Shown here: one piece after another, positions 6,718 through 28,100 of the stretch | How the letters are laid out: every line of letters begins with the position of its first letter | How positions within the stretch are numbered: the stretch's first letter is position 1 | Source: Halococcus salifodinae DSM 8989 | GTDB lineage: Archaea > Halobacteriota > Halobacteria > Halobacteriales > Halococcaceae | Direction of reading: 5' to 3' | NCBI RefSeq assembly: GCF_000336935.1 | Contig: NZ_AOME01000108.1 | Span: 40,281 to 82,066 of the forward strand | Length of the DNA stretch: 41,786 nt | Notes under the pieces: model-generated | Seen by the model: the letters and a program-made list of their open reading frames with translations, nothing else | Databases searched by the model: none | What the model was told of the DNA's origin: nothing | Made by a program: the position numbers and the translations under genes

Positions 6718-6812
6718 GGTTGTCTGCCCAAAAGACAGCCAGCCCGCGCGTTGTAGCGCGCGGGCACTTCCTTTCCGCTCGAAAGTGCCCCGAGGGGCCG
6801 GTCTGTCTCTAC
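6718..6812 (-). ncRNA. Structured 5' leader RNA, copy L1 (operon A)
   Basis: Predicted 95-nt leader on the minus strand, from an inferred start at 6812 (GTAGAGACAGACCGG) to the ATG at 6717. Homologous to copies L2-L4. Possible helices in order: GCCC-CUCG-GGGC; GGGCACUUUC with GGAAGUGCCC; GCCCGCGCG with CGCGCGGGC (9 bp, loop CUACAA); and GGCUGUCU with AGACAACC (one mismatch) ending right at the start codon. Adjacent hairpins share strands. A TATA-like CTTTATCA at 6834-6841 is centred about 26 bp upstream of the start. Upstream of that, L1 has no similarity to the other copies, so the conserved unit is the transcript, not the promoter. Confidence 0.72.
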
Positions 6813-6833
6813 CTATGCGTTATAGAGCTATGG

Positions 6834-9511: not shown

Positions 9512-9825
9512 CGTTGTTCACCCACCTTGTGGTTGTTCACCTCGGCGATGATGAGACGTGCGCGCCGTTCACCGATTTCATCGATTGTCAGCAGGTCCTC
9601 GCGGGTGGCGTCGGCGAGGTCTGCGATCGTCTCGTAACCTTCGTCGGGGAGGCGGTGGGCGAGCGCTGGTCCGACGCCGTCGAGGCTGGTCAGATCGGGT
9701 GACTGCTCGCCGTTGCTGTCGCGCGCACACATTGCAAACGGCGGGCGGTCGCCGACTGGTACGCCCTCGTCTTCGTCGTGGTCGTCTGACTGTTCTGTCG
9801 TGGTGCGTGGTTGGTTGTTTGGCAT
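9508..9825 (-). CDS. Helix-hairpin-helix protein
   Basis: A 105-residue protein. The acidic, Pro-rich N-terminal half is followed by a tandem HhH unit (LTSLDGVGPALAHRLPDEGY, LTIDEIGERRARLIIAEV) of the kind that binds DNA backbone non-specifically (RuvA/Rad51-like). ATG 9825 (MPNNQPRTTTEQ) is chosen over longer readings, which are basic and overlap other genes. It is coupled by ATGA to the beta-CASP RNase gene, so the two may act together. The HhH unit resembles those fused to the VirB4-like ATPase in this window. Confidence 0.78.
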   Translation of the reverse strand: MPNNQPRTTTEQSDDHDEDEGVPVGDRPPFAMCARDSNGEQSPDLTSLDGVGPALAHRLPDEGYETIADLADATREDLLTIDEIGERRARLIIAEVNNHKVGEQR

Positions 9826-9851
9826 GTTGATGCTTTTCGGTGTTGGTATTG

Positions 9852-9989
9852 CTATTGTTGAACGCCCCGAAGCCCTGTCGGTCGAAGATCGTGTTCGTGG
9901 TGGGTGGCGGACGCCTCCATCATCGTCGAATCCTTGGCCTCGACCATCGGGCCACAGATCGCACACTCGACACGAATGACGCCTTTCAT
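9852..9989 (-). CDS. 45-residue Cys/His-rich protein, operon B
   Basis: A very small protein, MKGVIRVECAICGPMV ... SATHHEHDL, with a CxxC followed by a His cluster, consistent with a single C2H2-like zinc knuckle. Its ATG overlaps the upstream stop by 4 bp (ATGA), and 26 bp separate it from the HhH gene. The tight coupling and zinc-finger pattern support a real gene despite its length. Confidence 0.58.
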   Translation of the reverse strand: MKGVIRVECAICGPMVEAKDSTMMEASATHHEHDLRPTGLRGVQQ

Positions 9990-10450
9990 CGGTCGGCTTG
10001 CTCGACGTGGATCGTGACGTTGCCGGTGTCGTAGTCGGCCTCGACAAGCTGGACCTCGTAGGCGTCTGCCTGGACGGCGGCGCGGTAGGTCCATTCGAGC
10101 GCGTGGCCGTCGTTCGTGAACTCCGGTCGGCCGTAGTCGCTCTCCCCGACGATTTTCCCGCGTACGACCTTGCTGTTGTAGAACACGGTCGAAATGTAGG
10201 GCGCGCTCTGGGTTTCGATCTGTGCCTCGGTGGTTTGTGGGACTGCGACCCGTCGGGGATCGTCGTCGACGAAGGCTTTCGCGCGCTCGACACTCCCGGC
10301 GATCTGGCGGGTGCGCTCGCCCGATAGAACATTCACGGGAACCGTGCGCTCGGCGTGGGCTTCCGAATACAGCACTTCCTCGTACGTCCGCGTTCCTCGA
10401 ATAGCTTCGTCCCCGAGCGGTGCGTCCGCGAATGCGTCGGTGTCGCTCAT
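9986..10450 (-). CDS. Hypothetical protein, operon B
   Basis: A 154-residue acidic protein (MSDTDAFADAPLGDEAIRGT). Its C-terminal half is predicted to be beta-rich (SAPYISTVFYNSKVVRGKIV, LEWTYRAAVQADAYEVQLVE, GNVTIHVEQ). No cysteines and no recognised family. Coupled to its neighbours by 4-bp overlaps at both ends. Haloarchaeal codon use and acidity argue that it is expressed. Confidence 0.62.
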   Translation of the reverse strand: MSDTDAFADAPLGDEAIRGTRTYEEVLYSEAHAERTVPVNVLSGERTRQIAGSVERAKAFVDDDPRRVAVPQTTEAQIETQSAPYISTVFYNSKVVRGKIVGESDYGRPEFTNDGHALEWTYRAAVQADAYEVQLVEADYDTGNVTIHVEQADR

Positions 10451-10769: not shown

Positions 10770-11287
10770 GCTTCCTCCGTGGTGCTCTCGCCCGCGATCT
10801 CGAACGGGTAGAACGTCGCGTACGTACCGTCGGCGGAAGCGTCCTCGTTGACGAGGGTCGTCGAAGGGCCGGTCGACGCGTTGACGTGGATGACACCAGC
10901 AGGCCGGCCTTCGCCGCCGGGGAACGTCGCGGGAGCGAACTCGCACAGCGCCTTGATGATTCCGTTGCGGAACGCCGCCCCGTTCTCGCGCTCGTTCAGG
11001 TCGCGGTCAAACCGTGTTTCGTGGGTGTAACGGGAAAGCACCTGCTCGATCGAGAGGCCGTAGCGGTAGGTCGCGCTCGGCTCAGGGGCTTCGTCGGTGG
11101 GCGCGGTCGTGAACGTCTTCGGGTCGCCGTTGTCCCAGCGCGTGCGGGCTTCAACCGCGCCGTCCGCACGAACGACGAGCGCCCAGTCACCGACCGCGTG
11201 AACCGTCTCGCCGTCGGCTTCGCTGGTCGGTTGGTGGTCGGCAGGCGATGCGTCGGATTCAAGTCGTCGGGTTACGTTTTCGGTCAT
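10766..11287 (-). CDS. First gene of operon B: hypothetical protein
   Basis: A 173-residue protein of unknown function. ATG 11287 (MTENVTRRLESDAS) is chosen because it lies immediately after the start-proximal hairpin of leader L2 and matches the N-terminus of the first protein of operon A. The middle has a beta-rich block (GDWALVVRADGAVEARTRWD) and helical stretches (YRYGLSIEQVLSRYTHETRF, GAAFRNGIIKALCEFAPATF). No catalytic motif recognised. Confidence 0.62.
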   Translation of the reverse strand: MTENVTRRLESDASPADHQPTSEADGETVHAVGDWALVVRADGAVEARTRWDNGDPKTFTTAPTDEAPEPSATYRYGLSIEQVLSRYTHETRFDRDLNERENGAAFRNGIIKALCEFAPATFPGGEGRPAGVIHVNASTGPSTTLVNEDASADGTYATFYPFEIAGESTTEEA

Positions 11288-11379
11288 GGTTGTTCTCCAC
11301 CGAGACAACCAGCCCGCGCGTTGTCGCGCGCGGGCACTTCCTTTCGTGAAAGTGCCCCGAGGGGCCGGTCTGTCTCTAC
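11288..11379 (-). ncRNA. Structured 5' leader RNA, copy L2 (operon B)
   Basis: Predicted 92-nt leader from 11379 to the ATG at 11287. Helices: GCCC-CUCG-GGGC; GGGCACUUUC/GGAAGUGCCC; GCCCGCGCG/CGCGCGGGC (loop CGACAA); then GGUUGU/ACAACC extended through an A bulge by CUC/GAG with loop GGUG, abutting the AUG. The TATA equivalent (CTTTAA on the plus strand, 11402-11407) is centred 25-26 bp upstream of the inferred start. The purine-rich GGUGGAG inside the last hairpin is the only Shine-Dalgarno-like stretch, and it would be hidden in the loop and stem. Confidence 0.75.
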
Positions 11380-11401
11380 TTCACCGTATGCACTACACCT
11401 A

Positions 11402-11570
11402 CTTTAATGTTTTACTTCGGGGTTGTACTCTGAGTCTTACGTCGTTCGGTTTCGGTGCTCACAAGGCGCTGAAGCCGGTGGGATGGGCGTGGTGGTGCGC
11501 CACGCGACTGTGCTTGTCATAATAGTCCAGTTCCGAAGCCGCTGAGACCGCTGCTGTCGTCCGTACAGCG
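11402..11570 (-). repeat. Promoter and upstream repeat of leader L2
   Basis: First of three long homologous promoter regions (others at 13007-13165 and 14318-14480). From the gene outward: TATA box (TTAAAG read on the minus strand), a box reading GAGTACAACCCCGAAG, and a distal 16-bp box (CTTGTCATAATAGTCC on the plus strand, 11513-11528) that lies exactly 109 bp from the TATA box in each copy. The block ends with conserved CCGAAGCCGCTGAGACCGC. No coding sequence is credible here. The rest of the gap to 11634 shows nothing further. Confidence 0.7.
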
Positions 11571-12417: not shown

Positions 12418-12890
12418 GCTGCCAGGACCTCCTCGACGCGCTCTTTCTTGTCGGGGCTGATCCCGAGCTGGCCGATAGCTTCGATAGCGGACGCGCCGGG
12501 GTTGTTCGCGGCGAATTGTTCGACACGCTCGGCGAGCGTCTGACTGTCGTCGGTCTCTGTCTCGGTATCGGCGTCGGTGTCGTCGGTCTTGTCGCTCGAT
12601 TCGACACGAACACCGTCAATGTCTGGGATTTCGCCGGTAACGAACGCGACTCGGTGGGCGTGTTTGCACCACGATCCGCGCTGGCCGTCGGGACACGTAC
12701 ACGATCCATCCGACGGGTCCACCGTGTAGGTGTTGCCCGACCCACTGAGCACCGTGTATTTGCCGTTGTCGCCGGCTGCTTCGACGTGGAAGAAGCTATC
12801 GAGCGCACGGGTAACACGCTTTGCGACCGCCTCAACACCGCGTCGTTCGTCGTCGGTACGTTCTTGACCGTTGGGTTCGTAGGCGTTCAT
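12414..12890 (-). CDS. SWIM zinc-finger protein, first gene of operon C
   Basis: A 158-residue protein with a SWIM motif, SCTCPDGQRGSWCKHAHRVA (CxC...CxH), preceded by the typical beta hairpin GKYTVLSGSGNTYTVDPSDG. SWIM domains bind Zn2+ and mediate DNA or protein contacts, for example in MuDR transposases and Sws1/Shu-type recombination proteins. The C-terminal part has an acidic linker and a helical unit (ASAIEAIGQLGISPDKKERV). The start codon follows the start-proximal hairpin of leader L3 directly. Confidence 0.78.
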   Translation of the reverse strand: MNAYEPNGQERTDDERRGVEAVAKRVTRALDSFFHVEAAGDNGKYTVLSGSGNTYTVDPSDGSCTCPDGQRGSWCKHAHRVAFVTGEIPDIDGVRVESSDKTDDTDADTETETDDSQTLAERVEQFAANNPGASAIEAIGQLGISPDKKERVEEVLAA

Positions 12891-12984
12891 GGTTTGTCCG
12901 TTGAAACAAACCGGCCCGCGCGGTCTGAACGCGCGGGCACTTTCCTCGTTGGAAAATGCCCCGAAGGGACCGGTCTGTCTCTAC
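12891..12984 (-). ncRNA. Structured 5' leader RNA, copy L3 (operon C)
   Basis: Predicted 94-nt leader from 12984 to the ATG at 12890. It is the most diverged copy in hairpins 1 and 2, yet keeps pairing: CCC-UUCG-GGG in hairpin 1, GGGCAUUUUCC with GGAAAGUGCCC in hairpin 2 (11 bp including one G-U), GCCCGCGCG with CGCGCGGGC (loop UUCAGAC), and GGUUUGU with ACAAACC ending at the AUG. Base changes that preserve or wobble pairs, compared with L1/L2/L4, support a selected RNA structure. The TATA equivalent is at 13007-13012. Confidence 0.75.
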
Positions 12985-13006
12985 TTCATCGTATGCACTA
13001 CACCCA

Positions 13007-13165
13007 CTTTAATGCTTTGCTTCGGGGTTGTACTCTAAGCCTCATGTCTTGCAGTTTTGGCATTCACAAGCCGCTGAAACCGGTGAGTTGGGCGTGGTAG
13101 TGCGCCACGCGACTGTGCTTGTCATAATAGTCCATCGCCGAAGCCGCTAAGACCGCTGCTGTCGG
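13007..13165 (-). repeat. Promoter and upstream repeat of leader L3
   Basis: Second long promoter repeat, homologous to 11402-11570 and 14318-14480. It holds the TATA equivalent (CTTTAA on the plus strand), the CTTAGAGTACAACCCCGAAG element read on the minus strand, and the distal 16-bp box at 13118-13133, again 109 bp from the TATA box. It fills the gap between operons D and C, so a terminator for operon D may also lie here, but none is obvious. Confidence 0.7.
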
Positions 13166-13600: not shown

Positions 13601-14203
13601 CTACTCCTCGGGGTAGGCGATGCGTCCGGTCCACGTCCGCTGTGCGTCACGCGAATGGGCTTCACCGTCGACCCGGAACGAACCCGTCGCACCGCAGGAC
13701 TGGCACTCGTAGAACTCCTCCCACTTCTGATTATTACTGTCCTCGGTCGCGGCGATCATGGCGACCTCGAAGCGCGACCCGCAGGACTGGCATTGTCGTT
13801 TCTCGCCTGCGCCCTCGACTTCATCGCTGTAGTGTGCGACCTCGTGGCCCCAATGATCGGCCTGGGGATGGTCGTGGTCGTGGTCCGTTTCGTCGGTCGT
13901 CTCGTCGGTTTCGATGACCGTGCCGCCGTCGGTGGCGATTTGCTGGCCGATCTCCGCCGCAGCTGCTACCGCGCTCGACCGCACGAGTGGGCGGGTTTCG
14001 ATCTCGTCTTGATGGACACAATGGCCGTTGAACTTGTGGCCTTTGCAGGAACAGCGAACGACCTCACCCGCACCGTCGACGAACACCGAGTGGGCGCGGT
14101 CGGATTCGGGGCGCTTGACGTTGATAACGCCGTTGTGGCAAACCGTGGTTTTGAGGCCGATGCAACCGGATGTTTCTTGACCGCTGAGTTCGTTCGTCGT
14201 CAT
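13601..14203 (-). CDS. SWIM-like plus zinc-ribbon protein, first gene of operon D
   Basis: A 200-residue protein with an N-terminal SWIM-like site, VVRCSCKGHKFNGHCVHQDE (CxC...CxH), and a C-terminal ribbon, RQCQSCGSRFEV ... YECQSCGATGSF. The middle is His/Asp-rich (DETDHDHDHPQADH), which may bind metal. It is a functional cousin of the SWIM protein of operon C, and its start codon sits at the same position after a leader (L4) whose start-proximal hairpin matches that of L3. This suggests operons C and D arose by duplication. Confidence 0.76.
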   Translation of the reverse strand: MTTNELSGQETSGCIGLKTTVCHNGVINVKRPESDRAHSVFVDGAGEVVRCSCKGHKFNGHCVHQDEIETRPLVRSSAVAAAAEIGQQIATDGGTVIETDETTDETDHDHDHPQADHWGHEVAHYSDEVEGAGEKRQCQSCGSRFEVAMIAATEDSNNQKWEEFYECQSCGATGSFRVDGEAHSRDAQRTWTGRIAYPEE

Positions 14204-14295
14204 GGTTTGTCCGTTGAAACAAACCAGCCCGCGCGGTCTGAACGCGCGGGCACTTCCTTTCGTGAAAGTGCCCCGAGGAGCCGGTCTGTCTCTAC
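14204..14295 (-). ncRNA. Structured 5' leader RNA, copy L4 (operon D)
   Basis: Predicted 92-nt leader from 14295 to the ATG at 14203. Hairpin 1 is GCUC-CUCG-GGGC, where a C-to-U change is tolerated as a U-G pair. Hairpin 2 is identical to L2. Hairpin 3 has the 9-bp GC stem with the L3-type loop UUCAGAC. The start-proximal hairpin GGUUUGU/ACAAACC is identical to L3. This mixture of L2-like and L3-like parts suggests recombination among copies. The TATA equivalent is at 14318-14323. Confidence 0.75.
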
Positions 14296-14317
14296 TTCAC
14301 CGTAAGAGCCCCATCCA

Positions 14318-14480
14318 CTTTAATGTTTTCCTTCGGGTTTATACTCTGAGGCTCACGTCCCACGGTTTTGGTGCTCACAGTCCATCCAAGCGGCTGAGAC
14401 GGGCGTGGTGAGACATCACGGACCGGCACTTGTCATAATAGTCCAGTTCCGAAGCCGCTGAGACCGCTGCTGTCGTCCGC
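14318..14480 (-). repeat. Promoter and upstream repeat of leader L4
   Basis: Third long promoter repeat. The TATA equivalent (14318-14323), the CAGAGTATAAACCCGAAG element and the distal box (14429-14444) keep the same spacing as in the other two copies. The far side borders the divergent HTH gene at 14559, so the distal box cannot be a terminator of an upstream operon and is more likely part of the promoter region. Confidence 0.7.
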
Positions 14481-15932: not shown

Positions 15933-16016
15933 TTACTCCGTACTAAGAACTTAGTCCTCCGCATCGAGTTCTTAGGTCTGAGGCACAAGTATTTGGTGCT
16001 GAGTACCCCGTACTAT
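15933..16016 (+). repeat. Heptamer array 1: twelve abutting 7-bp units upstream of the AAA+ gene
   Basis: Reading from 15933 in steps of seven gives TTACTCC, GTACTAA, GAACTTA, GTCCTCC, GCATCGA, GTTCTTA, GGTCTGA, GGCACAA, GTATTTG, GTGCTGA, GTACCCC, GTACTAT. The consensus is close to GTACTNN, with the phase kept throughout. The array covers the likely promoter (AAGTATTTG around 15987-15995) of the ATPase gene at 16045, so the protein that binds it would also control that gene. Confidence 0.78.
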
Positions 16017-16044
16017 TACGGTGCTAGGGCATACACTGGATGGC

Positions 16045-16977
16045 ATGGGCATAATTTCAGAACAGATCGACCGCCTCGAACCGGCAATGCTCCAGTTCGG
16101 CGAAGCGCTCGGTGGATCGCCCGACTCGGTGAAAGACCTTCCATTCAGCGAAGAGGCCGACAAAGATGGGATGCCTGAAGCGTTGTACGTCCGCCATGAC
16201 CAAGCGATGATCCACAACCTCACAGTCGCACTACTGAACGGCCACCACGTCGGTCTCATCAGTTCGTATGGCACGGGAAAGACCGCGCTCCGCGAGATCG
16301 TCCGGCGCGACCTCGGTGAGCATCCAGAGTTCGTCATTGGCTATCTCGACAACGCTCACGAGACGACGCCGCGCGGACTGTACGCCACGGTCATCCGGGC
16401 AGCGCTCGATGCGGATTATGACCTCGACGCTGACGAGTATCGCCAACTCCGCGAGGGTGTTCCGTGGGTCACTGACGAAGCGAAAGCAGCTGTCCGCGAC
16501 CTCGCCGAACAGGTCGAAGCCGACGACCGAACACTCTCGCTCGTCGTTGACGAGATCGAGGACTTCCCGACCGAGTTGTTGCCAGTGCTCCAGACGGTCG
16601 CCGATGCTGGCGTCCGACTGTTCCTGATGGGGACGCCTGCGGGACAGGATCGCCTCGAAGAAGCCCGCGACACGCTCGACTCGCGAATTCGATACCACGA
16701 GGGTATCAAGCCGTTCGACCACGAGGATGTGGCCGAATACGCCGCGCGCTCACTCACGTATTTCCGCGGCGAGGAGTTCAACGGTCAGGGACCCTCGCCG
16801 TTCACCGAGGACGCTATCGAGGTGATCCACGAGCGGACGGACGGCAACCCGCGTGACGTGCGCCTCGAATGTGCTGATACGCTGGCGAAGGCGGCCATTG
16901 CGTGGCACCAAAACGAACATGATGTCGAGGACTTCCAGATCGACCGCCGACTCGTCACGAGTACGGTCACGTCTTAG
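16045..16977 (+). CDS. AAA+ ATPase, Orc1/Cdc6-like without a recognisable winged helix
   Basis: A 310-residue AAA+ ATPase: Walker A SSYGTGKTAL (residues 76-80 are GTGKT), Walker B LSLVVDEIED (166-173), sensor 1-like LFLMGTPAGQ, an arginine-finger region LDSRIRYHEG, and a lid domain with TEDAIEVIHERTDGNPRDVR, the sensor-2 style of Orc1/Cdc6 proteins. It stops about 40 residues later, so the C-terminal winged helix of true Orc1/Cdc6 is missing. TniB/ExeA-type AAA ATPases are an alternative relative. ATG 16045 is preferred over an upstream GTG (16021). Heptamer arrays lie on both sides and the RHH-like gene follows, suggesting a role in replication initiation or DNA partition. Confidence 0.78.
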   Translation: MGIISEQIDRLEPAMLQFGEALGGSPDSVKDLPFSEEADKDGMPEALYVRHDQAMIHNLTVALLNGHHVGLISSYGTGKTALREIVRRDLGEHPEFVIGYLDNAHETTPRGLYATVIRAALDADYDLDADEYRQLREGVPWVTDEAKAAVRDLAEQVEADDRTLSLVVDEIEDFPTELLPVLQTVADAGVRLFLMGTPAGQDRLEEARDTLDSRIRYHEGIKPFDHEDVAEYAARSLTYFRGEEFNGQGPSPFTEDAIEVIHERTDGNPRDVRLECADTLAKAAIAWHQNEHDVEDFQIDRRLVTSTVTS

Positions 16978-17003
16978 GAGCAACATTTACCATGCCACAA
17001 CAC

Positions 17004-17052
17004 GCACTAAGAACTACGTGCTCCGTACTCCGCACTGAGTACGCGGTACTAA
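17004..17052 (+). repeat. Heptamer array 2: seven perfectly abutting 7-bp units
   Basis: GCACTAA, GAACTAC, GTGCTCC, GTACTCC, GCACTGA, GTACGCG, GTACTAA from 17004 to 17052 without a gap. Same unit as array 1, between the ATPase gene (stop 16977) and the RHH-like gene (start 17096). It occupies the position of a promoter or operator for the second gene. Forty-nine bases made of seven units is very unlikely by chance. Confidence 0.82.
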
Positions 17053-17095
17053 TTCACGGCTCGACACCCTCCACGCTACAACAGGACCCACATCG

Positions 17096-17554
17096 ATGAC
17101 AGAAACCAACGACAGTGACACCGACACCGACGATAGCGGCGATCTCGGCGGCGTGCTTGGTGAGGTCGGCCTCGACTACGGGGACGATGAAGCCGGCGAC
17201 ACGCCGGAGAGCAACGAGACGGATTCTGAAGGCGAAGCCAGTGATTCTGATCCACCACAGGCGTCCGACGACTCAGCGGACGCTGACGAGCAATCGAGTG
17301 ATGAATCGGAATCAGGATCGGGAGCGGACGATGGCCCGTTCGCACCGGACCCCGGAATGCAACTCACGAAATCGTTCGGGACGAAACTCACGCCGCCCGA
17401 AAAGGAGTTCATCGAGTTGTACGTCGAGTTCTCCGACGAGTATGACAACCCCGGCGCGTTCTTGCGTAAGTTCGTGAAGGAACTCCGCCGAGAGTACGGT
17501 GAAGAGGTGATGCGGCGAAAAGAAGCACTCGAAGAACTCAAAGGGGGATTCTGA
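17096..17554 (+). CDS. Acidic protein with predicted C-terminal ribbon-helix-helix domain
   Basis: A 152-residue protein. The first about 85 residues are an extremely acidic, low-complexity tail (MTETNDSDTDTDDSGD and similar). The C-terminal 65 residues read QLTKSFGTKLTPPEKEFIEL, then YVEFSDEYDNPGAFLRKFVK and a charged helix. A short strand (KSFGTKL), a first helix and a second helix after the DNPGAF turn fit an RHH fold, the class of DNA-binding protein that recognises heptad centromere/operator arrays in pSM19035 omega and related partition proteins. This assignment is by pattern only. It is encoded just after the AAA+ gene and is the best candidate to bind the heptamers. Confidence 0.62.
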   Translation: MTETNDSDTDTDDSGDLGGVLGEVGLDYGDDEAGDTPESNETDSEGEASDSDPPQASDDSADADEQSSDESESGSGADDGPFAPDPGMQLTKSFGTKLTPPEKEFIELYVEFSDEYDNPGAFLRKFVKELRREYGEEVMRRKEALEELKGGF

Positions 17555-17808
17555 AATGGGCCGGAGAGAGCGTCACCTGCGATACCGTGGGCGTTCGCGG
17601 CACCGACGACTTGCAGAATGGGGTCCCCGTGGCGTGCGCTGTCGGTCCGGAGATGTATATCATGTCCTCTGAACGCCGAAACCGTCGCCAATGCCACTCA
17701 AGAGGCAGGATCAAACAGCGCTCCGAGAGTGGCGGCGGACTGTGGGGGACCGTGCTCATTCCTCGTGCGCTCTCTCGGGGGCCAACCGACGGATAAGACA
17801 GCCATCAC

Positions 17809-17998
17809 ATACTCCGTACTCCGTACTCCGTACTCCGTACCCCGCACCGCGTGTTGCGTGCGTTCTCCCCCGTACTGCGTGCTCGGTTCTCCGCTATTTC
17901 GTACTGGTGTCTCGCTATCCCGTGCTGAGAACGGCGGACTGAGTGAGCGGTACGGAGATCGGCATACTCCGTCCTCGTCACGGCGTCCGTAGTGCTCT
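17809..17998 (+). repeat. Heptamer array 3, about 27 units, right part degenerate
   Basis: It begins ATACTCC, then three copies of GTACTCC (17816-17836), GTACCCC, GCACCGC, GTGTTGC, GTGCGTT, and later GTACTGC, GTGCTCG, GTTCTCC. After a one-base slip near 17900 the 7-bp rhythm resumes with GTACTGG, GTGCTGA, GGACTGA, GTACGGA, GTCCTCG and GTGCTCT. The unit and orientation are those of arrays 1 and 2. Degeneration toward the right suggests that only the left end is under strong selection. Confidence 0.72.
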
Positions 17999-18320
17999 GC
18001 GTTCAGGTGGCGCGTGTGGCCGCCCAGTGCGCCGCTGTGGGTGCCCAGCGTGGAAACGGGTGTCCATCCCTCCATCTCGCTCTCTCGCCGTTTCTGGCCC
18101 CGCTGCTGGCGGAGATATGAGTCCCACGCTGCTATGGTGCTCTTGCCTTCCGACGACAGCCACTCCGCTGGCCCGGACCCCGAGCGTGCGTCCCCGTGCT
18201 GAGGACCCTGCTGCTGCCCTCCAACGATCTCCCCACCGCTGCTGACGACCGCTGCTCCGCTGGTGCTATGCCGACCCGCACCGCTGCCGCACTGGTGGGA
18301 CCCCGGTTCTGCTGATACTG

Positions 18321-18642
18321 CCCGGACCCCGGCTTTGTCGTCACGTTACTGTGCTGTCGCACTGCTGTTTTTTCAGTGCTGTGCTGTGTCTCTCACCTGT
18401 TGGCCCCCCAGTCTGTCGTCACTCACCCGGCCCCGGCCATGCTGATACTGCTGGACATCCAGGACTCGCGGTACTCTCATCAACTCGCTGCTTCGCTCAC
18501 TCGGCCCCCGGTCATGCTGACACACGCTTCCATCAGCGGTCAGTTGCTGCGCCACCTCGGCCCCCAGTCTGTCGTCACTCAATCACCATCACTCCATACT
18601 CAGTGTCTCGCCTGCCGGCCCCCGGTCTGTCGTCACACTCAT
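18321..18642 (+). repeat. Longer direct repeats with core CGGCCCCC(A/G)GTCTGTCGTCAC
   Basis: Near-identical copies start at about 18400 (TGGCCCCCCAGTCTGTCGTC), 18558 (CGGCCCCCAGTCTGTCGTCA) and 18616 (CGGCCCCCGGTCTGTCGTCA). Weaker versions are at 18321 (CCCGGACCCCGGCTTTGTCG) and partial ones at 18428 and 18502 (CGGCCCCCGGTCATGCTGAC). All are in the same orientation with uneven spacing, so they are not a simple tandem repeat. They look like iteron-type binding sites inside the non-coding region. Confidence 0.62.
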
Positions 18643-18763
18643 CCATCATCGGTGTTCCACTCCCTGGCTTCTGCTCCTGCTGGCTCCTCAGCTGGCACCA
18701 TCAGCATTCTGGCAGGTCCAGTCAGTGCTTGCTTCACTCGGCCGGGGTCCCCACGTCGTCGTC

Positions 18764-18924
18764 AGTCCTCAGTTCGTAGTTCTCAGTTCGTAGTTCGCAG
18801 TCCTCGGACACCCATGCTCAGTTCGTAGTGCGCGGCTCGCAGTTCGCAGTTCTCAGTCGCCAGTTTCCAGTCCGTAGTTCGGCGTACTCACACACGGGGT
18901 CCTCCGTTCTCCGCACTCCGTAAC
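18764..18924 (-). repeat. Heptamer array 4, mostly inverted relative to arrays 1-3
   Basis: Twenty-three units in phase from 18764. Units 1-17 read AGTCCTC, AGTTCGT, AGTTCTC, AGTTCGT, AGTTCGC, AGTCCTC, then after two diverged units AGTTCGT, AGTGCGC, AGTTCGC, AGTTCTC, AGTCGCC, AGTTTCC, AGTCCGT, AGTTCGG. Their reverse complements are GAACTNN-type units like those of arrays 1 and 2. The last units (around 18897-18924) switch to the forward type, GTCCTCC, GTTCTCC, GCACTCC. Inverted arrays at the two sides of the non-coding region suggest a bracketed nucleoprotein structure. Confidence 0.78.
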
Positions 18925-19072: not shown

Positions 19073-19510
19073 ATGGGAAACGGCGCTCAGACAGACGCAG
19101 AAACTCTCGATGAACTCGTGGGACAGACGCGCGGCCCCCGCGCATCAATCATTGATGGCCTCCGTTTTTACGGCAATGAAACTAATGTGAAAAAACTCCG
19201 GGAATATGGCGATTTTCAGTCGGCCGCCTACCACCTTGACATACTTAAGGAACAAGGACTTATCAAAAAATCTGGAGAAGAATTTGTGGGTCGTGGAGGG
19301 TCGTCAACAGTATATCGTTTGACTAATCTTGGGCAGGAAGTCGCGGATGAACTTACTGATCCATCGGACCAGTCGGCAACGTTTTCGGAGATGGTAGGGC
19401 GGGTTGAACAGTTGGAAGACGAAATCGAGAACTTTCGGGAAGCCCACAATGAGATGGCTGACTTCGTTGAAAAGTTGGATGACGAGATAGAAGACCTCAA
19501 GCAGCAGTAG
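19073..19510 (+). CDS. Winged-helix regulator with C-terminal coiled coil
   Basis: A 145-residue protein. The winged helix covers about residues 25-90 (ASIIDGLRFYGNETNVKKLR, QSAAYHLDILKEQGLIKKSG, then a wing GGSSTVYRLTNLG). A coiled coil follows (MVGRVEQLEDEIENFREAHN, VEKLDDEIEDLKQQ), which should give a dimer. This layout is common among haloarchaeal plasmid and phage regulators. It borders both the repeat-rich non-coding region and the end of the T4SS operon (12 bp, convergent), so it may control replication or its own promoter through the TAAGAG boxes. Confidence 0.74.
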   Translation: MGNGAQTDAETLDELVGQTRGPRASIIDGLRFYGNETNVKKLREYGDFQSAAYHLDILKEQGLIKKSGEEFVGRGGSSTVYRLTNLGQEVADELTDPSDQSATFSEMVGRVEQLEDEIENFREAHNEMADFVEKLDDEIEDLKQQ

Positions 19511-19521
19511 CGTCCCAGGAT

Positions 19522-22500
19522 TCAGAGTCGGCTAACACGTTCTCCAGAATCACCGTCCTCAGAGGCGGGTTCAGAGTTGGTCTCAGCCTCGGCTTCCTCG
19601 ACCTCTTCGGCGTCTTCGTCTGGGGCGCTCCCGCCGTCCGTCGCACGGGCGGCGGACTGGTCGCTCCCGTCGCTCGCATCCGGCGTGGTCGCGGTGTTTG
19701 AGTCCGGGGTGGCGGTCTGTTCTCTGCTTTTCTCGTTGCTCTCAACGTCGTCCGGCATGATAATCATGTCCGAGAGTGGTGTGTTTTCGGCGTCCTCCCG
19801 GTAGAGTTCGAGGTCGGCTGGCGAGAGCAGTTCTTTCTCCACCTCACCGTCCTCAGTCTCCGTTCTCGGCGGCCTTGGTACGGTGATGATGTCCCATTCC
19901 GCAGCGCTCGGGTCGCCACCGTCGAACTCGTATTCGGGGATGATTGGCGGCTTCACACCCCGATCGCCGTCGTCGGGATACGCGCTCGCATCGGTGTAGA
20001 TGTCCGCCGCCGTATCGAAGCGTGCGTGGACGGTTCCGGCGTTGTCACGCAGGATGTACTGGCCGGTCTGCTCGTCGTACACCCACACGTTATCCTTCGC
20101 ACCGGGGCGGGTGATCTCCTCGTCGTCGATCTTGAAGTAGTCCGGCGTGAGCGTGTAGAATCGTTTCTCACCGTCTTCGGAGTGCCCGTCCGTACAGCAT
20201 GGCTCCTCGCCCGCAACCACATCGTGTAGATGCGCGGCGTCCTCGGGCCGACAGAGGAACAGACACCGATGGTTCTGGTTGTGGGCTTGGACGAGATTTG
20301 AGACCGTCTGCGACGGCTGTGAGTTGCCTGTCGAATGCTCAGATTCGATAAACGCATCACGGGTGCCTGCGAGCCGGTCGAGAATCGCGTGCTCTTCGCG
20401 GTAGGTAGTCACGCGCTCGGTGATCTGGTCGTGGGCGTCGGCGTCGAGATCGTCGAGGTAGAGTGCATCATCGAGCGTGGCGAGCGCGTCAGGCAGTGAG
20501 TCGCCGTCTTGATCGAGGATGTCGAACACGAAGCCCAGCTGCGTGAACGGGACATACGCCTCAACCATCGGGTCTTGGTGGTGTTTCCCACCAGCGGTAG
20601 TGCTATCGCCGACGTTCATGAAGCTCGTGTCGAGTGCTTTCACCTCGGTATGAGCTTCTTCGCCATCTTCGGATACCTGATCGCGGACGGCGATACATTC
20701 GTCGGCGACGTTCTGGTAGACCTTTCGCCACGCTTGTTGGGGCGTCTTGATGCTCTCGCCACCCGGTAGATACTGTCGGAGGCGGGAGATAGCATCTTCC
20801 ACCGTCACAAACGCTGGCTCGTCATCCTGCCGGATTGACTCGTCGAAGGTAGCTTTGAGCGCACGCTGCCACACACGGCGGTCGTCCATGTCGAGTTCGT
20901 CGGGCAACGCGGGGCCGCTGATCTCGCCTGTGGTGCCAGTGTTGTGGAACGGCGACTCTTCTTTGAGTTCTTCCGCCGACTTGGGCACATCGCCGTAGCG
21001 CTCGACTGACCGGCGCTTCATCCCCTCAACATCAACCGCTCTCTCATCGTCAGCAACGATCTCCTGACGTGCGTCTCGCGCTGGCTGAAAGCCGTCAACT
21101 TTGTACGAATACGTCTTGTCCTCGTTGTTCGCTGTCCGCCAATATGTTCGCAGCCAGTGCTTATGACGGCCGACATCGGTCAGCGGGTCGGCGCTGTCGA
21201 ACGAGTGATGGGATCTGATATACTGAGCGTCTTTCTCACCAGTACCATAGGAAACGGCGGTATCGACCTGATTCTGGAGCGCGTTTTTCAGTTCGTCATA
21301 CAACTGGTTCGACGGGGCCTGGCACGCCAAGATCATGCGGAAGCCATACCCGCCGGAGATTGACAAGAGTTCGTGGACGTTTGTCAGCGGGGAAATCCCT
21401 TTATCGAACTCGTCCCACAGCAGATAGAAGCGTGGCGAATCGGGAAGCGTCCTCTTCGCCGTCGCAAACCGCCGCATCAACGGTGTGAGCATGAACCGGG
21501 TTTCGTTCTTTGAGAGATGCGGGTCAAGACGGAGTACGCATACCTTCCCCTCTCGGACGAACTCTTGAATGCTCGCTGTTGGATCACGGGCACACAGGAA
21601 CTCGCGGAGGCCGGCGTGTTGGGTAAGGAGGTCAGTGCGGCCGGCCAAGGGTTCGAGGTCAGCGTCTTCCTTCTCAGCAATGCGTTGGGCGGCTTGACGG
21701 ACGAATGCAATGCGTTCCTCATCCATCCATTGGCTGAACTGCTCTAGCCCTTCCGACGACGACACAGCGGCCGCGATATCCAACGGGGTGCAGGTCTCGC
21801 TCCGCTGTTTCGACAGGCCCGTGATGACCGTTCGGGTGATGCGGTCCATGAGAGCACCCCAATAACTCGTGTCCCCGCCGCCTGCCTCGGCGAATGAAGC
21901 AGCCCAATCCTCAGCAAGCGTCTGAATCGCCGACTCATACTCATTCGTTCCTGGTTCGGCATCGGTCGGGATCTCCAACAGGTTGAATCGCACCCGCTTC
22001 TCGAACTCGTCGCCCGTGTCGATGAATACGAAGTCCTCTTCGGGGCGGCCCTCGGGCCATTCCTCGATAAACCGATCTTCGTCCGACACTTCATCATCCT
22101 CGTCTTCTTTGGCCGTCGCAACGACGAGCGCACCATAGTCGCGGTCGAACACCTGCGACCCGACATTTGTCAACGTCGTTGTCTTCCCCTTCCGTGTCCC
22201 GCCGGTAAGCATCATGTGGGCGTCCAGATAATCCTCATAGACACCGACTTCCGTTCCATGCTTGCTGCCGAAACCAAGCCAGAACGGATCGCCCGGCCCG
22301 GAATTATCGAGCATTGCGACCTGCTTTTCCGCACGAGATGCTTCGCTCGACAACCCGACATCCTCGAAATCAAAGCGTGGGGTGCGTGGTGGGACGCCTT
22401 TGCCGGCCGACGAAAGCGAGTAATCGAACTCTGAGAGCGTCACATTGGCCGGCACCTGACAGACGCCGGCCAGCGTATCCGTCGAAAACACCATCCTTTG

Positions 22501-23580
22501 ATCGGTGTACTCACGGCCTGCCGCCCGCTGGACCATTCGGTAGAGTTGCTTGCTCGACAGTGACGACGGCTCGAACCCCTGTTCGAACTCCGGCGCGTCG
22601 AACTCGCTGTACGTGCTGGCGACGTTCGCCACTCGGCGCTTAGCAACCTCCGGGTCGTCCGACACGGCGATGATGCGGATGCAGAAGTGATGGCCTCGCA
22701 TTCCTTTCTGCGTGTCGAGCAGCTGCTCCTGTGGCGACCGATTCGCCCGCGGCTCCTCAGTGTTGCTACCGGTAAACCGATTCCCGTCCTCACGTTCGCG
22801 CTCACGCCGTTGGCGGCGGCGGTCGCGGCGGCGCTGTTTGTCGGTCATCCCGGCCTGCTGGAAGGGTTCGGCGATTTCTCTACCAATTTGTTCCCAATCC
22901 ATCGAACTGTCGCCACTGTTGCCCTTGCCGGTCACGGAATCCGCTGTCTTGTCGATGCCGTACCACCAATTCAGGCGGTCCCATCGTGCATCGAACACGG
23001 CGGGCTTGATGATCGTCTGCACGAGCACGTCGCACGCGGCTTCGTGCGTCGACCCGACCATCTCACGGCCAATCGACTTGAATGGTGAGATGTCGAAGTA
23101 GTCACTATCATACCGGAAGTTCTTCACTGGACGCAGCCGGTCAACGTCGCTGGATTGGCGCAGTGAGAGCGTCGTGCCAGCCACATACCGACCAGTACGA
23201 GCATCGAGAAACGCTGAGTCGACCTCCTGCATATCGGATTCGTCATAGTAGCTCTCGAACTGTCGTTCTAAGAACTCAAAGCGCTCGCTCGACCGTGAGC
23301 CGACCCGCGGCTGCAACAACTCAGTATCATCGGAGTAGTGCAATTCAAACGCAAACGGAGCCGACCCATTCCGCAGGTCGAGCATCCCCGTCGTCGGGTC
23401 ATGAAGCGAATTGAGGAGCTTTGCGCTACGAACCAACCCATCATCAGTGCCAGTATATGGACGGACTGTCTGGAGGCGTGCATCGCGTGAGCGCTCGTAG
23501 AGGTCTTCGGCGAGCATGTCGTCCACTTCGATGGTGGCGGGGCCGGAGTCGCCGAACGGGAGAATTGAGGACAGCCCCAT
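19522..23580 (-). CDS. VirD4/TraG-like coupling ATPase (HerA/FtsK superfamily), last gene of the T4SS operon
   Basis: A 1352-residue ATPase. Walker A is MLTGGTRKGKTTTLTNVGSQ (about 457-476) and Walker B is RFYLLWDEFDKGI (about 717-729), followed by LLSISGGYGFRMILACQAPS, a sensor-like Gln region seen in TraG/VirD4 and VirB4 ATPases. The N-terminal 300 residues are VirB4/TraC-like soluble sequence with a very basic patch (DKQRRRDRRRQRREREREDG). The C-terminus is long, acidic and probably disordered. No N-terminal membrane segment is apparent, unlike bacterial VirD4; the small membrane proteins encoded just upstream could anchor it. Role: bringing DNA to the transfer channel. VirB4-type is the main alternative. 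Confidence 0.78.
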   Translation of the reverse strand: MGLSSILPFGDSGPATIEVDDMLAEDLYERSRDARLQTVRPYTGTDDGLVRSAKLLNSLHDPTTGMLDLRNGSAPFAFELHYSDDTELLQPRVGSRSSERFEFLERQFESYYDESDMQEVDSAFLDARTGRYVAGTTLSLRQSSDVDRLRPVKNFRYDSDYFDISPFKSIGREMVGSTHEAACDVLVQTIIKPAVFDARWDRLNWWYGIDKTADSVTGKGNSGDSSMDWEQIGREIAEPFQQAGMTDKQRRRDRRRQRREREREDGNRFTGSNTEEPRANRSPQEQLLDTQKGMRGHHFCIRIIAVSDDPEVAKRRVANVASTYSEFDAPEFEQGFEPSSLSSKQLYRMVQRAAGREYTDQRMVFSTDTLAGVCQVPANVTLSEFDYSLSSAGKGVPPRTPRFDFEDVGLSSEASRAEKQVAMLDNSGPGDPFWLGFGSKHGTEVGVYEDYLDAHMMLTGGTRKGKTTTLTNVGSQVFDRDYGALVVATAKEDEDDEVSDEDRFIEEWPEGRPEEDFVFIDTGDEFEKRVRFNLLEIPTDAEPGTNEYESAIQTLAEDWAASFAEAGGGDTSYWGALMDRITRTVITGLSKQRSETCTPLDIAAAVSSSEGLEQFSQWMDEERIAFVRQAAQRIAEKEDADLEPLAGRTDLLTQHAGLREFLCARDPTASIQEFVREGKVCVLRLDPHLSKNETRFMLTPLMRRFATAKRTLPDSPRFYLLWDEFDKGISPLTNVHELLSISGGYGFRMILACQAPSNQLYDELKNALQNQVDTAVSYGTGEKDAQYIRSHHSFDSADPLTDVGRHKHWLRTYWRTANNEDKTYSYKVDGFQPARDARQEIVADDERAVDVEGMKRRSVERYGDVPKSAEELKEESPFHNTGTTGEISGPALPDELDMDDRRVWQRALKATFDESIRQDDEPAFVTVEDAISRLRQYLPGGESIKTPQQAWRKVYQNVADECIAVRDQVSEDGEEAHTEVKALDTSFMNVGDSTTAGGKHHQDPMVEAYVPFTQLGFVFDILDQDGDSLPDALATLDDALYLDDLDADAHDQITERVTTYREEHAILDRLAGTRDAFIESEHSTGNSQPSQTVSNLVQAHNQNHRCLFLCRPEDAAHLHDVVAGEEPCCTDGHSEDGEKRFYTLTPDYFKIDDEEITRPGAKDNVWVYDEQTGQYILRDNAGTVHARFDTAADIYTDASAYPDDGDRGVKPPIIPEYEFDGGDPSAAEWDIITVPRPPRTETEDGEVEKELLSPADLELYREDAENTPLSDMIIMPDDVESNEKSREQTATPDSNTATTPDASDGSDQSAARATDGGSAPDEDAEEVEEAEAETNSEPASEDGDSGERVSRL

Positions 23581-23891: not shown

Positions 23892-24355
23892 GGTTCTGGT
23901 TCTGGTTGCTGTTGGAGGTCGGTCGGCTCACTCTCGGCACTGCTCTCGTCGGTTTTCACTTCGTCTGGCGACGGGTTCTCTCCGTTCTCGGTGGTTTCGA
24001 CGGCCCTGTTCTCGCTCTCGCCGAAGACATCGAGTGTTCGCCGTGTGGTGCTGAATGTGGTAGCCTCGGCAACACCCTCTCGGTAGGCTCGTTTCCCGAC
24101 GAAGATCACGTCCCGATGGGAGAGTCCGTACACCCGGAGCACCGCGTAGGGCACAGCGATCGGGATCACGACCGTGACACCCACGGTGACGCCGAGTTGG
24201 AGCTGCCACGGCACCGAGAGTATCGCAGCCACGCCGGCCACCCCGTAAATTACGATAGCAACAGCAGCGCCGATAGCCAGCATCCCGGCTTGTCGGCCTC
24301 GTCGCCGAAGCGCCCGCCGTGTCTCGGAGTTCAACACAGAGTCAGTCTCGGCCAT
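23888..24355 (-). CDS. Membrane protein with acidic tail, T4SS operon
   Basis: A 155-residue protein. ATG 24355 (MAETDSVLNSETRRALRRRG) gives a sensible start and overlaps the upstream gene by 14 bp. Two hydrophobic segments (AGMLAIGAAVAIVIYGVAGV; LGVTVGVTVVIPIAVPYAVL) are followed by a long acidic cytoplasmic tail (ESENRAVETTENGENPSPDE). No family recognised. It is one of three small membrane proteins between the VirB4-like and VirD4-like ATPases. Confidence 0.66.
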   Translation of the reverse strand: MAETDSVLNSETRRALRRRGRQAGMLAIGAAVAIVIYGVAGVAAILSVPWQLQLGVTVGVTVVIPIAVPYAVLRVYGLSHRDVIFVGKRAYREGVAEATTFSTTRRTLDVFGESENRAVETTENGENPSPDEVKTDESSAESEPTDLQQQPEPEP

Positions 24356-24854
24356 GTGGCGAGTCCCCTGATGGAGTGTTCGATTGCCCGGCAAGCGCCT
24401 CGTACTCGGTCCGAAACGCATCGAGCATCGCGGTTTCGAGGTCGGTGATCTCGTCACCGTATTCAAGCAGGGCATAGCCGCCGATCCGGCCGCCGCGTGG
24501 CGAGACGACCCCTGCAAACGTACCGTTGCAGAACACCGCCCACTGGCCCGGTTGAACAGTAATCGTGTTCCAACCGGGATAGGTGGTTTCGACCGTCCTC
24601 GAAGCATCGAGATCGGCGGCAACGAACCCCCACGTGTCGTCCGTCTCGAAGCGATATTCCCACGCACCGTCGTCGTTCAGGTGCTCGGATGCGGCCGGCT
24701 GCTCAGTCGCCTCATACGACACACCGATGGCCTCGCCGATCTGTTCGGCCAGAAGCGCGATTTCGGGGATCGCCGTTTCAGTCCCTTCGATGGTCGCGGT
24801 GTTCTCGCTTTTCCTTGGGCGGCTGGTCGTGGGTTCGGTCTCGGAATCCGCCAT
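24342..24854 (-). CDS. Soluble hypothetical protein, T4SS operon
   Basis: A 170-residue protein. ATG 24854 (MADSETEPTTSRPRKSEN) is chosen; the longer reading covers another gene. The N-terminus is disordered. The C-terminal two thirds are globular: IALLAEQIGEAIGVSYEATE, WEYRFETDDTWGFVAADLDA, WNTITVQPGQWAVFCNGTFA, then GGRIGGYALLEYGDEITDLE. No transmembrane segment or known motif. It overlaps its neighbours by 14 bp and 1 bp. Confidence 0.64.
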   Translation of the reverse strand: MADSETEPTTSRPRKSENTATIEGTETAIPEIALLAEQIGEAIGVSYEATEQPAASEHLNDDGAWEYRFETDDTWGFVAADLDASRTVETTYPGWNTITVQPGQWAVFCNGTFAGVVSPRGGRIGGYALLEYGDEITDLETAMLDAFRTEYEALAGQSNTPSGDSPHGRD

Positions 24855-25138
24855 TAGATGCTCGCCTCCCGGTGATACTGCCACGTGGTGAACTTCGTCG
24901 TGAGCTTCGAGACGACGAACAACCCAGCGAACAGTGCCGTAAGCACACCGCACAACGCTGCCAACGAGATACCAAGACGATGCACGACTACCGGATGGGA
25001 ACCGTACAACGTCCCATAGATCGTCACGAATGCGTAGCTGAGAATCGCCCATTTCAGCGCTCGACTACCCAACCGACGGAACACCCACTGGTGGCGTTGC
25101 TGCCGGTCGATTCGTCGCTCGTAGGATGCGCTGGACAT
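24854..25138 (-). CDS. Small membrane protein, T4SS operon
   Basis: A 94-residue protein with a basic N-terminus (MSSASYERRIDRQQRHQWVF) and two hydrophobic segments (LKWAILSYAFVTIYGTLYGS; LGISLAALCGVLTALFAGLF). A start three codons upstream (25147, MIEM) is also possible and would overlap the VirB4-like stop. The pattern is compatible with a VirB3/PrgI-like inner-membrane component but is not diagnostic. Confidence 0.64.
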   Translation of the reverse strand: MSSASYERRIDRQQRHQWVFRRLGSRALKWAILSYAFVTIYGTLYGSHPVVVHRLGISLAALCGVLTALFAGLFVVSKLTTKFTTWQYHREASI

Positions 25139-25139
25139 C

Positions 25140-28100
25140 TCAATCATCACCTCCTGCCGTGCCGGCCACCGCACCCTCCGCCTGCTCGTCGACGAGACTG
25201 CTCGCGCTCTCGACGATTGTCGCGGCACGGGCACCGCCGATCCCCTTGACATCGGTCAGGGTGCTCTCGTTGGCGGTTGCCACGTCCTCGACTGTCTCGA
25301 AGCCCGCTTCACGGAGCATGTCGGCACGGTCGTCACCGATCTCCTGAATGTCCGTGAGCGCCGGCTGGCCGGACTCGTCGGCGGATACTTGCCCGGCTGT
25401 ATCGGCACTCTCATCAGCGTCAGGACTATCCGAAGACTGCGCTTCCTCGGGCTGCTGTCCGTCGATCTCGGCGTTTTCGCGCTTGTCCGTTGCTTCTGGC
25501 GATTCAACGATCGATTTGGATCGACCAAGCGGTTCGGCCGCCTGTCGGCGGAGGAACGCGGCTTTGGTCACGTCAAGGCCCTCGACCTCTGCGAGCGCTG
25601 CGTTGTCGGCCTCGAAGAAATCCTCGACGCTCCCGTAGCCTGCTGCTCGAAGGTTGCCCGCCATTCGGACGGTAATGGTACCGTGAATGTCGGTCAATTC
25701 CGGGTCCTCGACCGCTTCGCTCTTGTCCTGGTCGTTGCGACCGACTGCTTCACTCACCGAGTCTTTCAGTCGGCTGGCGAACCCAGCCGATTCTTCGTCG
25801 GCCGGCCCATCACTCCCGATCTCGCTCTCGGCTGTGGCCGATTCATCACCGTCTGCTTCGTCGGCGGGCGTTTCACCCCGAGCCTGTTCGGGGCTGTCCG
25901 TGGCCGCGTCGGCGTCCGTGTTTGCCTCGGTCGGGGTCACGTCCACATCCGCTACATCGGTCGTGACCGTCGTCCCATCTGCGAGCTCGGTTCCGGTGTG
26001 GGACTGGTCGGTTCGTGACCCGTGTCCGGCGTCGTCCTGCCCGAGCCATGTCCACTCGGTCACGTCTTTGTCGTCTCGGTCCGTATAGTTGTGGAGATAT
26101 GCGAGTGGGTCCGTCCCGTCCTCGGCCTCGGTCGGATCGTACTGGTTCACCGCAAATTCACGCGGCGTCAATTTGTCCGTGTAATCCACCGCAAGCCGGT
26201 AGCTCCCACCTTTCTGCAACGTCAGCAGCGCTTGGGCGGTCGGTTCACCCGTGGCCGCGTCCTCGACATGGCGCTGTTCTGCATCCGTCAAGTCAAATTC
26301 ATCCGCCCACTCGTCATTCATCTCTTCGAGGTAGTGCCAGATTTTCACCGACATGAGATTCGTCAGCGTGCTCGCGTCGTCGGTCAACTGTCGCTCGCCC
26401 TCGTCGTTCTTCGTGAAGAACTCCTCGACCGACTGAGTGGCCGTTATCATCGAGAGATCGGAGTGCCGTGAGTGCCGATACGCCTGTTTCAGCGTTTCCA
26501 ACGACGAACTGTTATGGAGCATATAGTGAAATTCATCCATCGCCAATGCCATCGGCTCGTCAATCTCCTTGGCTTGCTCCAGAACCGACGTGAGTAGTGG
26601 CCCCATCATCAACCCGGCCGTCACCTCGTTCTCGTAATTTTGGAGGTCCAGATACAGCACGTCGATGTTGTTGATGTCGATGCTGGTCTCTTCCGAGAGA
26701 TGTTCGAACTCCCCACCCTCCTGAAGCGCCCCCGTGTGTTGATGGAGAATTTTGTCCGCTCTCTGTTCCATCCCGTCTACCGAGGTGTCCACGTCTTCGG
26801 CTCCGCTGAGGACGAATTCTTCAGGGTCATTTAACATCTCCAGAAGAATCGGGAACACGTCCTCTTTGAGGGTCGGACTGTCCCGATGGTGTGTGCTCGG
26901 GTCCTTGGTGATTTCACGGCGGCTGTAAGCTTCCTTGATTGCGTCCCGCCACGTATCCTGTACGTCCTCGAAGGGGAGGCTCTGGTACTCGTAGAAGCTC
27001 CGCACGAAGTCCATTGCCCGACGAATCGCATTCCGATACGGTCCTTCATCGCCGTCTTCATCCAAATCCTCCGGGGGAGTTTCCTCGATTTGGAGTGGGT
27101 TGATGCCGGTATTCGATCCGATTTTCACCGTCTGGCCGTCGAACAGCCACGTAAACCCGGCAAATTCCTGTTTCGGGTCGATGATGACCAGCGGCATCTC
27201 AGGATTTTTCATCTTCAGCCGCAGGAGCAGCCGCGTCAACGTCGTCGTCTTTCCACTCCCGATCGTGCCCCAGACCCCGACATTGAATCCCGTCTCACGG
27301 TTCTGGAGATCGAGGATGATCGGGTCGCCCGTATCCTCGTTCGTCCCGAGTTCGATACCGCCGGGTTCGATGAGATTGCTGGCCGTCCACGGCATGAGGC
27401 GGGCAAGCCCGTCGCCGGTCATTTTCGTCTGCCCGCCGAGGTAGTTCTTGCACGCGGGCGCAACCGTCTGATAGCCTTCCTTCGGGTGGTATTTCAGTTC
27501 CTTCGCAGCTGCCGACACGTCCTGCATCCGCGCCTGAATCCGCTCGATTGCCGTATCGAGTCTGTCGCGGTCGGGCGCGCGGACCTCGATGTAGGTGTGC
27601 GCTGTGTATAGCGAGTATTCGGATGCAGAGATCGTGTTCTGCGTGCGCTTCACATCAGCATATTCCTCGACCGCAGTATCCACGAAGTAATCAGGGATCC
27701 ACTTGTTGCGTGCCAGACTCTTCACCCGCTGTTTGAGCGAGTCAGCCGAGTCGGCAAGCTCTTGGTTGGCGTTCCGCTTGTTCTCGCCCGAGAAGTGCGT
27801 CGTGAGCGTGACATCGACCTTCGGCATCTGGAACGAAACGATGTCATCAAAAAACCCGCGGCACGGTTTTGCGGGCCAATCGCGCACTTCCAGCGTCTTC
27901 GTGAAGTAGTCGCCGTCGATCTCGGCACACTCGTCGTGGAGTTTGAACGAGTCCGGGGCGAGCGCTGTCTTGTACCGCCACGCGAGTTCTTCGTCGTCAG
28001 CCGCGAGACCTACGAGTGCGTCTTCATTCAAGTCGGCCACTGAGTCGCTTTCTGTGGGCATTGTTCCACCGTCGGTCATCACGGTCCTGTTGTGGGCGAG

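Follow-up and report, generated by a model that had tools for sequence, protein, structure and literature searches.

What is the function of two adjoining haloarchaeal genes whose promoter regions are both occupied by arrays of abutting 7-bp repeats? The pair lies in a 41,786-bp stretch of Halococcus salifodinae DSM 8989 (contig NZ_AOME01000108.1, positions 40,281 to 82,066; hereafter the window) and encodes an AAA+ ATPase (P0001) and a small partner protein (P0002). On many haloarchaeal plasmids, distant relatives preserve this layout with units of 6 bp instead. This suggests an undescribed plasmid-segregation system, and on comparative grounds the two-gene module is read here as a plasmid maintenance system, probably one of partition (probability roughly 0.55). 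The features of the module are as follows.

15933 to 16016, top strand: array 1, 12 heptamers of the GTACTNN type, immediately 5' of the ATPase gene.
16045 to 16977, top strand: AAA+ ATPase P0001, 310 amino acids (aa), AAA_22, Walker A GTGKT, Walker B LVVDEIED.
17004 to 17052, top strand: array 2, 7 heptamers in the gap between the two genes, 5' of the small gene.
17096 to 17554, top strand: small partner protein P0002, 152 aa, with an acidic N-terminal half and a strand-helix-helix pattern in the C-terminal ~65 aa.
17809 to 17998, top strand: array 3, 5 regular units (17809-17843), phase broken afterwards.
18762 to 18924, bottom strand: array 4, heptamers chiefly on the bottom strand.

An earlier note on this DNA had described these arrays by inspection and proposed autocorrelation at lag 7 as a check. 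Lag-7 identity was compared with 5000 dinucleotide shuffles per array and rose above shuffled sequence in all four stretches, at 34/77 in array 1 (shuffled mean 18.9; z 4.0, p 0.0002), 26/42 in array 2 (mean 10.5; z 5.2), 89/183 in array 3 (mean 49.7; z 6.4) and 85/154 in array 4 (mean 40.9; z 7.3), with 0/5000 shuffles reaching the observed value in each of the last three. Against shuffled sequence the four lag-7 arrays are therefore real. When the entire window was scanned, lag-7 peaks of 27/49 or more were confined to arrays 2 to 4. Array 1 lies below this threshold and also misses significance in a generic upstream test (p7 = 0.11); it was accepted because the in-place shuffle is significant and because a strong in-phase lag-7 array stands at the same place in another genome of the genus, G236.

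G236 was found in a search of 391 genomes of the class and carries an ATPase 90 % identical to P0001 and a small protein 68-69 % identical to P0002, in the same order. Its array 1 is longer than that of the window by one whole 7-bp unit, in phase, and its array 2 is ~30 bp longer, with the phase kept. The 42 units of arrays 1 and 2 from the window and G236 give the consensus G (35/42), T (33), A (28), C (37), T (36), N, N, so GTACTNN, the unit named in the earlier note, is correct; its GTAC core is a palindrome. Synteny between G236 and the window spans about 7.7-17.5 kb of the latter and breaks off directly behind the small gene. Arrays 3 and 4, seen only in the window, do not occur on the 14.4-kb contig of G236.

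A weight matrix built from arrays 1 and 2 was used to search for in-phase runs. All four arrays were recovered, against no run at all in seven control loci totalling 112,005 bp, and only arrays 3 and 4 test the matrix independently since arrays 1 and 2 served for training. The runs comprised 10/12 units of array 1, 7/7 units of array 2, and in array 3 the segment 17809-17843 (5 units) together with a looser one at 17922-17977 (5/8), with phase shifts between them. In array 4, bottom-strand runs were located at 18762-18803 (6/6) and 18818-18852 (4/5), and a weaker top-strand run at 18765-18820 (5/8). Array 3 is thus present, although the ~27 units first counted in it shrink to two runs between which the phase changes; array 4 is largely inverted as had been described, and its 23 units were too generous a count.

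Exact GTACTNN triplets occur in 3 of the 391 genomes: that of the window, G032, where they lie between pirin-like and chemoreceptor-like genes (by eye), and G045, where they form a GTACTGG simple repeat (G045:C1:1537809-1537869) unrelated to the module. As the last two cases indicate, heptamers of this kind can arise without the module, also as microsatellites. A chance or microsatellite origin is ruled out for arrays 1 and 2 by their conservation in G236 and for the module generally by the 6-bp arrays of its distant relatives; for arrays 3 and 4, absent from the 14-kb contig of G236, it is excluded less firmly and not fully.

These distant relatives give the module its wider setting. Of the 391 genomes, 96 were matched by P0001 at E 0.001. 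Families f3 and f10 account for 45 matches of 50-56 % identity, of which many lie on contigs of Mb size, and about 25 further matches have 33-39 % identity, with named plasmids among them (pNG100 of Haloarcula marismortui and plasmids of Natrinema, Natronosalvus, Halomarina and Haladaptatus). Among named genomes, 22 module loci were located, in Halobium, Halobacterium salinarum DSM 3754, Halogranum, Natrialba, Natrinema, Halogeometricum, Haladaptatus, Halorubrum, Halorhabdus and Halosimplex, among others. A gene of ~100 aa follows directly 3' of the ATPase gene in 21/22 of these, the exception being a truncated copy. The repeats of this plasmid clade are hexamers (for example TTAATC TTAAGA TTAATA) in the ATPase promoter and in the intergenic gap, mostly ~4-5 units by eye. 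The 22 named loci and L037, L040, L053, L054 and L153 make up the 27 modules tested; L039, L043 and L046 are duplicates of named plasmids, many further unnamed loci are copies of named ones, the matches in G363, G125, G175 and G249 (two) fell outside the retrieved set, and G023 (L034), a more distant ATPase with neither array nor small gene in the stretch read, was left out of the module counts. Lag 6 was significant (p<0.05) upstream of the ATPase gene in 26/27 modules and between the genes in 26/27, the two misses being L054 (upstream, p 0.07) and the truncated locus L095 (gap), whereas lag 7 was significant in 1 upstream region and in 0 of the gaps. The same gene order and array positions thus recur in other haloarchaeal replicons, where the earlier note had proposed to look for them, and the promoter position that it gave to arrays 1 and 2 is borne out by G236 and, with other units, by the plasmid clade. 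In one of these modules (L153, genome G209, same genus, on the contig of a conjugative element with a type IV coupling protein, T4CP) both gaps hold, by eye, hexamers of the NNAACG type. GTACTNN as a unit is particular to the element of the window and a single close relative; what the modules have in common is short repeats in phase, mostly of 6 bp.

The repeat unit follows the ATPase lineage. A tree of the ATPases has one branch that sets off the hexamer group (support 100/100), one that sets off the heptamer group (87/81) and one that sets off the array-less group (83/94); the heptamer ATPases lie nearer to the chromosomal ones than to those of the hexamer clade. In the 28 chromosomal homologues retrieved from the 45 at 50-56 % identity there was no adjacent small gene, no match to one, and no array, lag 6 being significant in 3/28 upstream and 0/28 in the downstream gap. 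Each of these loci (L005-L032; f3 and f10) holds a lone ATPase gene, which encodes an N-terminal extension and has the look of a former plasmid gene adopted by the chromosome.

The module was found in 9 PLSDB plasmids. The ATPase of pNG100 gave 0 matches in 50,697 phage records, and in viral contigs no relative was confirmed either for P0001 or for the plasmid-clade ATPase, so a viral origin was rejected; the one viral locus found with P0002 (L061) was dropped because only the acidic linker matched and the region has, by eye, the look of a tailed phage. An Orc1/Cdc6 homologue lies within the retrieved stretch of 13/21 distinct hexamer modules. A ParA-type gene (PF13614) is absent from 3/6 module plasmids, namely pNG100, a 29.8-kb Natrinema plasmid and a 119-kb Halomarina plasmid. 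No match to the PADLOC defence models was obtained at E 0.01 for both proteins of the window and both of pNG100, of which the small one is WP_011222133.

The nature of the ATPase bears on what the module could do. Alignments with relatives make ATG 16045 a more likely start than GTG 16021, and the resulting 310 aa compare with 309 aa in most relatives. The Pfam scan returned AAA_22 only (PF13401, E 2.7e-8) and no ParA family match; a ParA-type ATPase with deviant Walker A, as in type I ParABS, was accordingly not found. A match to phrog_296 (DNA transposition protein) was also obtained (1.7e-6), and Foldseek ranked 2qby Cdc6/Orc1 first, followed by ORC, MuB and TnsC, for a model of moderate confidence (pLDDT 62.7). 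It had been called Orc1/Cdc6-like rather than ParA, which holds in that it is an AAA+ protein, is not a ParA and has Cdc6/Orc1 as its best structural match. The likeness does not extend beyond the AAA+ fold class, given the assignment to AAA_22, the length of 310 aa, which leaves little room for a winged-helix domain (none is obvious), and the finding of no Cdc6_lid match anywhere on the window's contig. The combination of AAA+ core, lid and winged helix that marks an Orc1/Cdc6 initiator was accordingly not found, while the core resembles 2qby.

The same evidence bears on a role in replication or copy-number control, in which the ATPase would be an accessory initiator or regulator of the ORC clade and the arrays iterons that set origin firing. 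This is rather unlikely. It gains from the Foldseek ranking, from the orc1/cdc6 genes near 13/21 modules, and from the lack of an Orc1/Cdc6 lid on the window's contig, which means that something else may replicate that contig. An inverted repeat, TTAACCAACA...TGTTGGTTAA, also stands just 3' of the small gene in ~10/22 named loci (L076-L093, by eye) and is perhaps an Orc-binding or terminator element. However, many module plasmids have an orc1/cdc6 gene of their own, the ATPase has the length given above and no obvious winged-helix domain, and the arrays occupy the module's own promoters rather than a separate AT-rich zone. The earlier note had left the choice between a partition and an origin system; the former is a fair reading and the latter the less likely, since many relatives already adjoin a real orc1/cdc6 gene.

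MuB and TnsC ATPases share with the window ATPase the fold class and a size without winged helix, as does IstB. These proteins serve transposition, whereas the partner here is a small array-linked protein in an operon without a transposase; none was found among the window genes scanned. A plain autoregulated operon, with the arrays as operators only and the ATPase otherwise employed, for example in MuB/TnsC-like target selection, would accord with the AAA_22, phrog_296 and MuB/TnsC matches and with the chromosomal clade in which the ATPase is alone. Such an account is quite improbable, as it leaves aside the missing transposase and the plasmid-linked distribution of the module, and arrays 3 and 4 in the noncoding zone are more than self-regulation requires.

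The small protein is the less well defined of the two. The earlier note had called it ribbon-helix-helix (RHH)-like, a by-eye and unproven assignment based on the sequence pattern alone, which four lines of profile, fold and family testing did not settle. By hhalign its probability against RHH was at most 1.4 % (0.7 % for a helix-turn-helix control), with 2/7 genomic RHH rows in the wrong orientation. The predicted structure (AlphaFold pLDDT 59) consists of coil followed by helices at 15-26 and 32-62, and neither a convincing family match nor, from this low-confidence model, a fold match was obtained. An N-terminal motif, FxxA-hydrophobic-DxxE, may be common to the ATPase and the small protein, the ungapped similarity exceeding that of shuffles (p<0.05) in 10/21 pairs, most clearly in L153 (EDDPFGEAIDRAE and EDDPFGDAMDAAE). 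It is absent from the window pair (p 0.41) and is kept as a hint only, because the compared rows share ancestry and a number of the alignments are not in register.

The closest parallel among known systems is delta/omega of pSM19035, with parS heptads WATCACW, where short adjoining repeats in both orientations also stand at both promoters and an ATPase is joined by a small partner; there, 7-10 heptads overlap the copS, delta and omega promoters, and full activation of ParA takes a minimum of 4 contiguous heptads (PMC9499535). As in such pSM19035-like ParABS loci, adjoining repeats are present here at the promoters of both genes, and the ATPase and small genes form one operon. They differ in the ATPase (ParA there, AAA+ of the AAA_22 family here), in the unit (GTACTNN here, or 6 bp in most relatives) and in the partner (a small DNA-binding protein there, one of unproven fold here). 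In the archaeal SegAB, SegA is a ParA-type Walker ATPase. SegAB and AspA-ParB-ParA of pNOB8 are likewise archaeal DNA segregation cassettes, the latter plasmid-borne and with a ParA-type Walker ATPase, unlike the module, and the accessible text of PMC5120986 mentions no comparable phased arrays of hexamers or heptamers. No description of the module was found in the open full-text literature, a coverage that leaves subscription papers and preprints aside. In layout the module is a variant of known partition loci, and its machinery may be a new class.

The operon is conserved, carries arrays at both promoters with unit types that track the ATPase clades, and is located on plasmids beside replication genes; from this we infer a mechanism of partition. 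Dimers of the small protein would line up side by side on the phased repeats, each occupying one unit of 6 or 7 bp, and by covering both promoters would shut down their own operon. The arrays, in the window perhaps including 3 and 4, would serve as the centromere. MuB-like ATPases bind DNA nonspecifically, and by analogy with its fold relatives the ATP form of this AAA+ ATPase (of the ORC/MuB/TnsC kind) would bind host DNA in that manner and tether or move the plasmid. The small protein could then touch the ATPase through its acidic tail or its short N-terminal motif, and this contact would drive ATP hydrolysis and release.

Several observations weigh against partition. The ATPase stands outside every known partition class. 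No DNA-binding fold has been demonstrated for the small protein, the profile, fold and family comparisons having given no clear RHH match, and homology between P0002 and the partner of the plasmid clade was not significant in a profile comparison. The 45 matches at 50-56 % look like lone genes, the 28 retrieved being without detectable partner or array, and two hexamer modules lie on contigs of Mb size (G006:C1 and G242:C3). ParA-type genes occur on the other 3/6 module plasmids, and the window's 84-kb contig, of which circularity is not shown, itself has a ParA gene (24,015-24,890) with a 135-aa gene behind it, ~31 kb from the module.

A broader proposal is more tentative, at somewhat under even odds: a new partition class in which an ATPase of the initiator clade replaces the ParA, actin or tubulin homologue, with phased-repeat centromeres whose unit, in length (6 or 7 bp) and in sequence, follows the ATPase lineage and with one lineage turned into a chromosomal lone gene. 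How low-copy replicons are passed on in the plasmid-rich, polyploid haloarchaea is poorly known. The matter is directly testable because the module is compact and is carried by plasmids in many genera; for one of these plasmids, pNG100, there is a strain that has lost it (PMC6528647). If the module partitions DNA, an AAA+ ATPase of the ORC/MuB type can do the work of ParA, and initiator, transposition and segregation ATPases would be linked; the change from 6- to 7-bp phasing with the layout kept would be a natural experiment in the packing of small DNA-binding dimers.

Beyond the small gene, arrays 3 and 4 enclose a noncoding stretch and are followed by conjugation genes.

18000 to 18760, no strand assigned: pyrimidine-rich noncoding stretch with repeats (for example CCCCCAGTCTGTCGTCACTCA, 3 copies), between arrays 3 and 4.
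19073 to 19510, top strand: winged-helix/coiled-coil-like protein, weak PadR/Csa3-like matches.
19522 to 23580, bottom strand: T4CP (PF10412, E 1.8e-4).
25140 to 28514, bottom strand: VirB4-type ATPase with a C-terminal HHH domain (NF045975, 5.6e-42; HHH_5, 1.6e-17).

The stretch at 18000-18760 has negative AT and GC skew and no Rfam match, and is a candidate transfer or replication origin. It also contains iterated GTCGTC-type motifs and, at its end just before the winged-helix gene, a G/C-rich near-palindrome. The winged-helix gene adjoins T4CP in 5/7 retrieved relatives and, by this arrangement, is assigned to the conjugation genes rather than to the ATPase. Under a conjugative reading the small protein would be a relaxosome accessory factor and arrays 3 and 4 with the stretch between them a transfer origin. 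The T4CP gene ends ~0.6 kb past array 4, with VirB4 behind, and similar pyrimidine-rich noncoding stretches stand beside T4CP and a winged-helix gene in three relatives, all conjugative elements (L150, L151 and L156). Yet GTACTNN arrays were found in none of the seven T4CP-relative loci, where two weak lag-7 peaks proved to be unrelated sequences, and hexamer modules are also carried by small plasmids, among them pNG100, whose annotation holds no transfer gene. This reading is quite improbable. The arrays as transfer origin were rejected on the same comparison, and they go with the ATPase module because the T4CP relatives have the stretch and the winged-helix gene but no such arrays; the stretch that arrays 3 and 4 flank may itself belong to transfer.

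Some further features of the element were recorded. A second HHH_5 protein is encoded at 9508-10332, besides the HHH_5 domain fused to the VirB4-type ATPase. A CcdA-like RHH antitoxin gene (PF07362) at 2999-3639 overlaps a 138-aa gene that is PIN-type toxin-like by eye. A dispersed repeat family of ~100-300 bp is represented at 6714-6825, 11213-11550, 12863-13156 and 14174-14467, and several copies that cross-match are also present on the contig of G236. An RNase J-like beta-CASP protein (610 aa) is encoded at 7679-9511, and this region, part of the backbone shared by the two elements, has 83 % DNA identity in the G236 contig.

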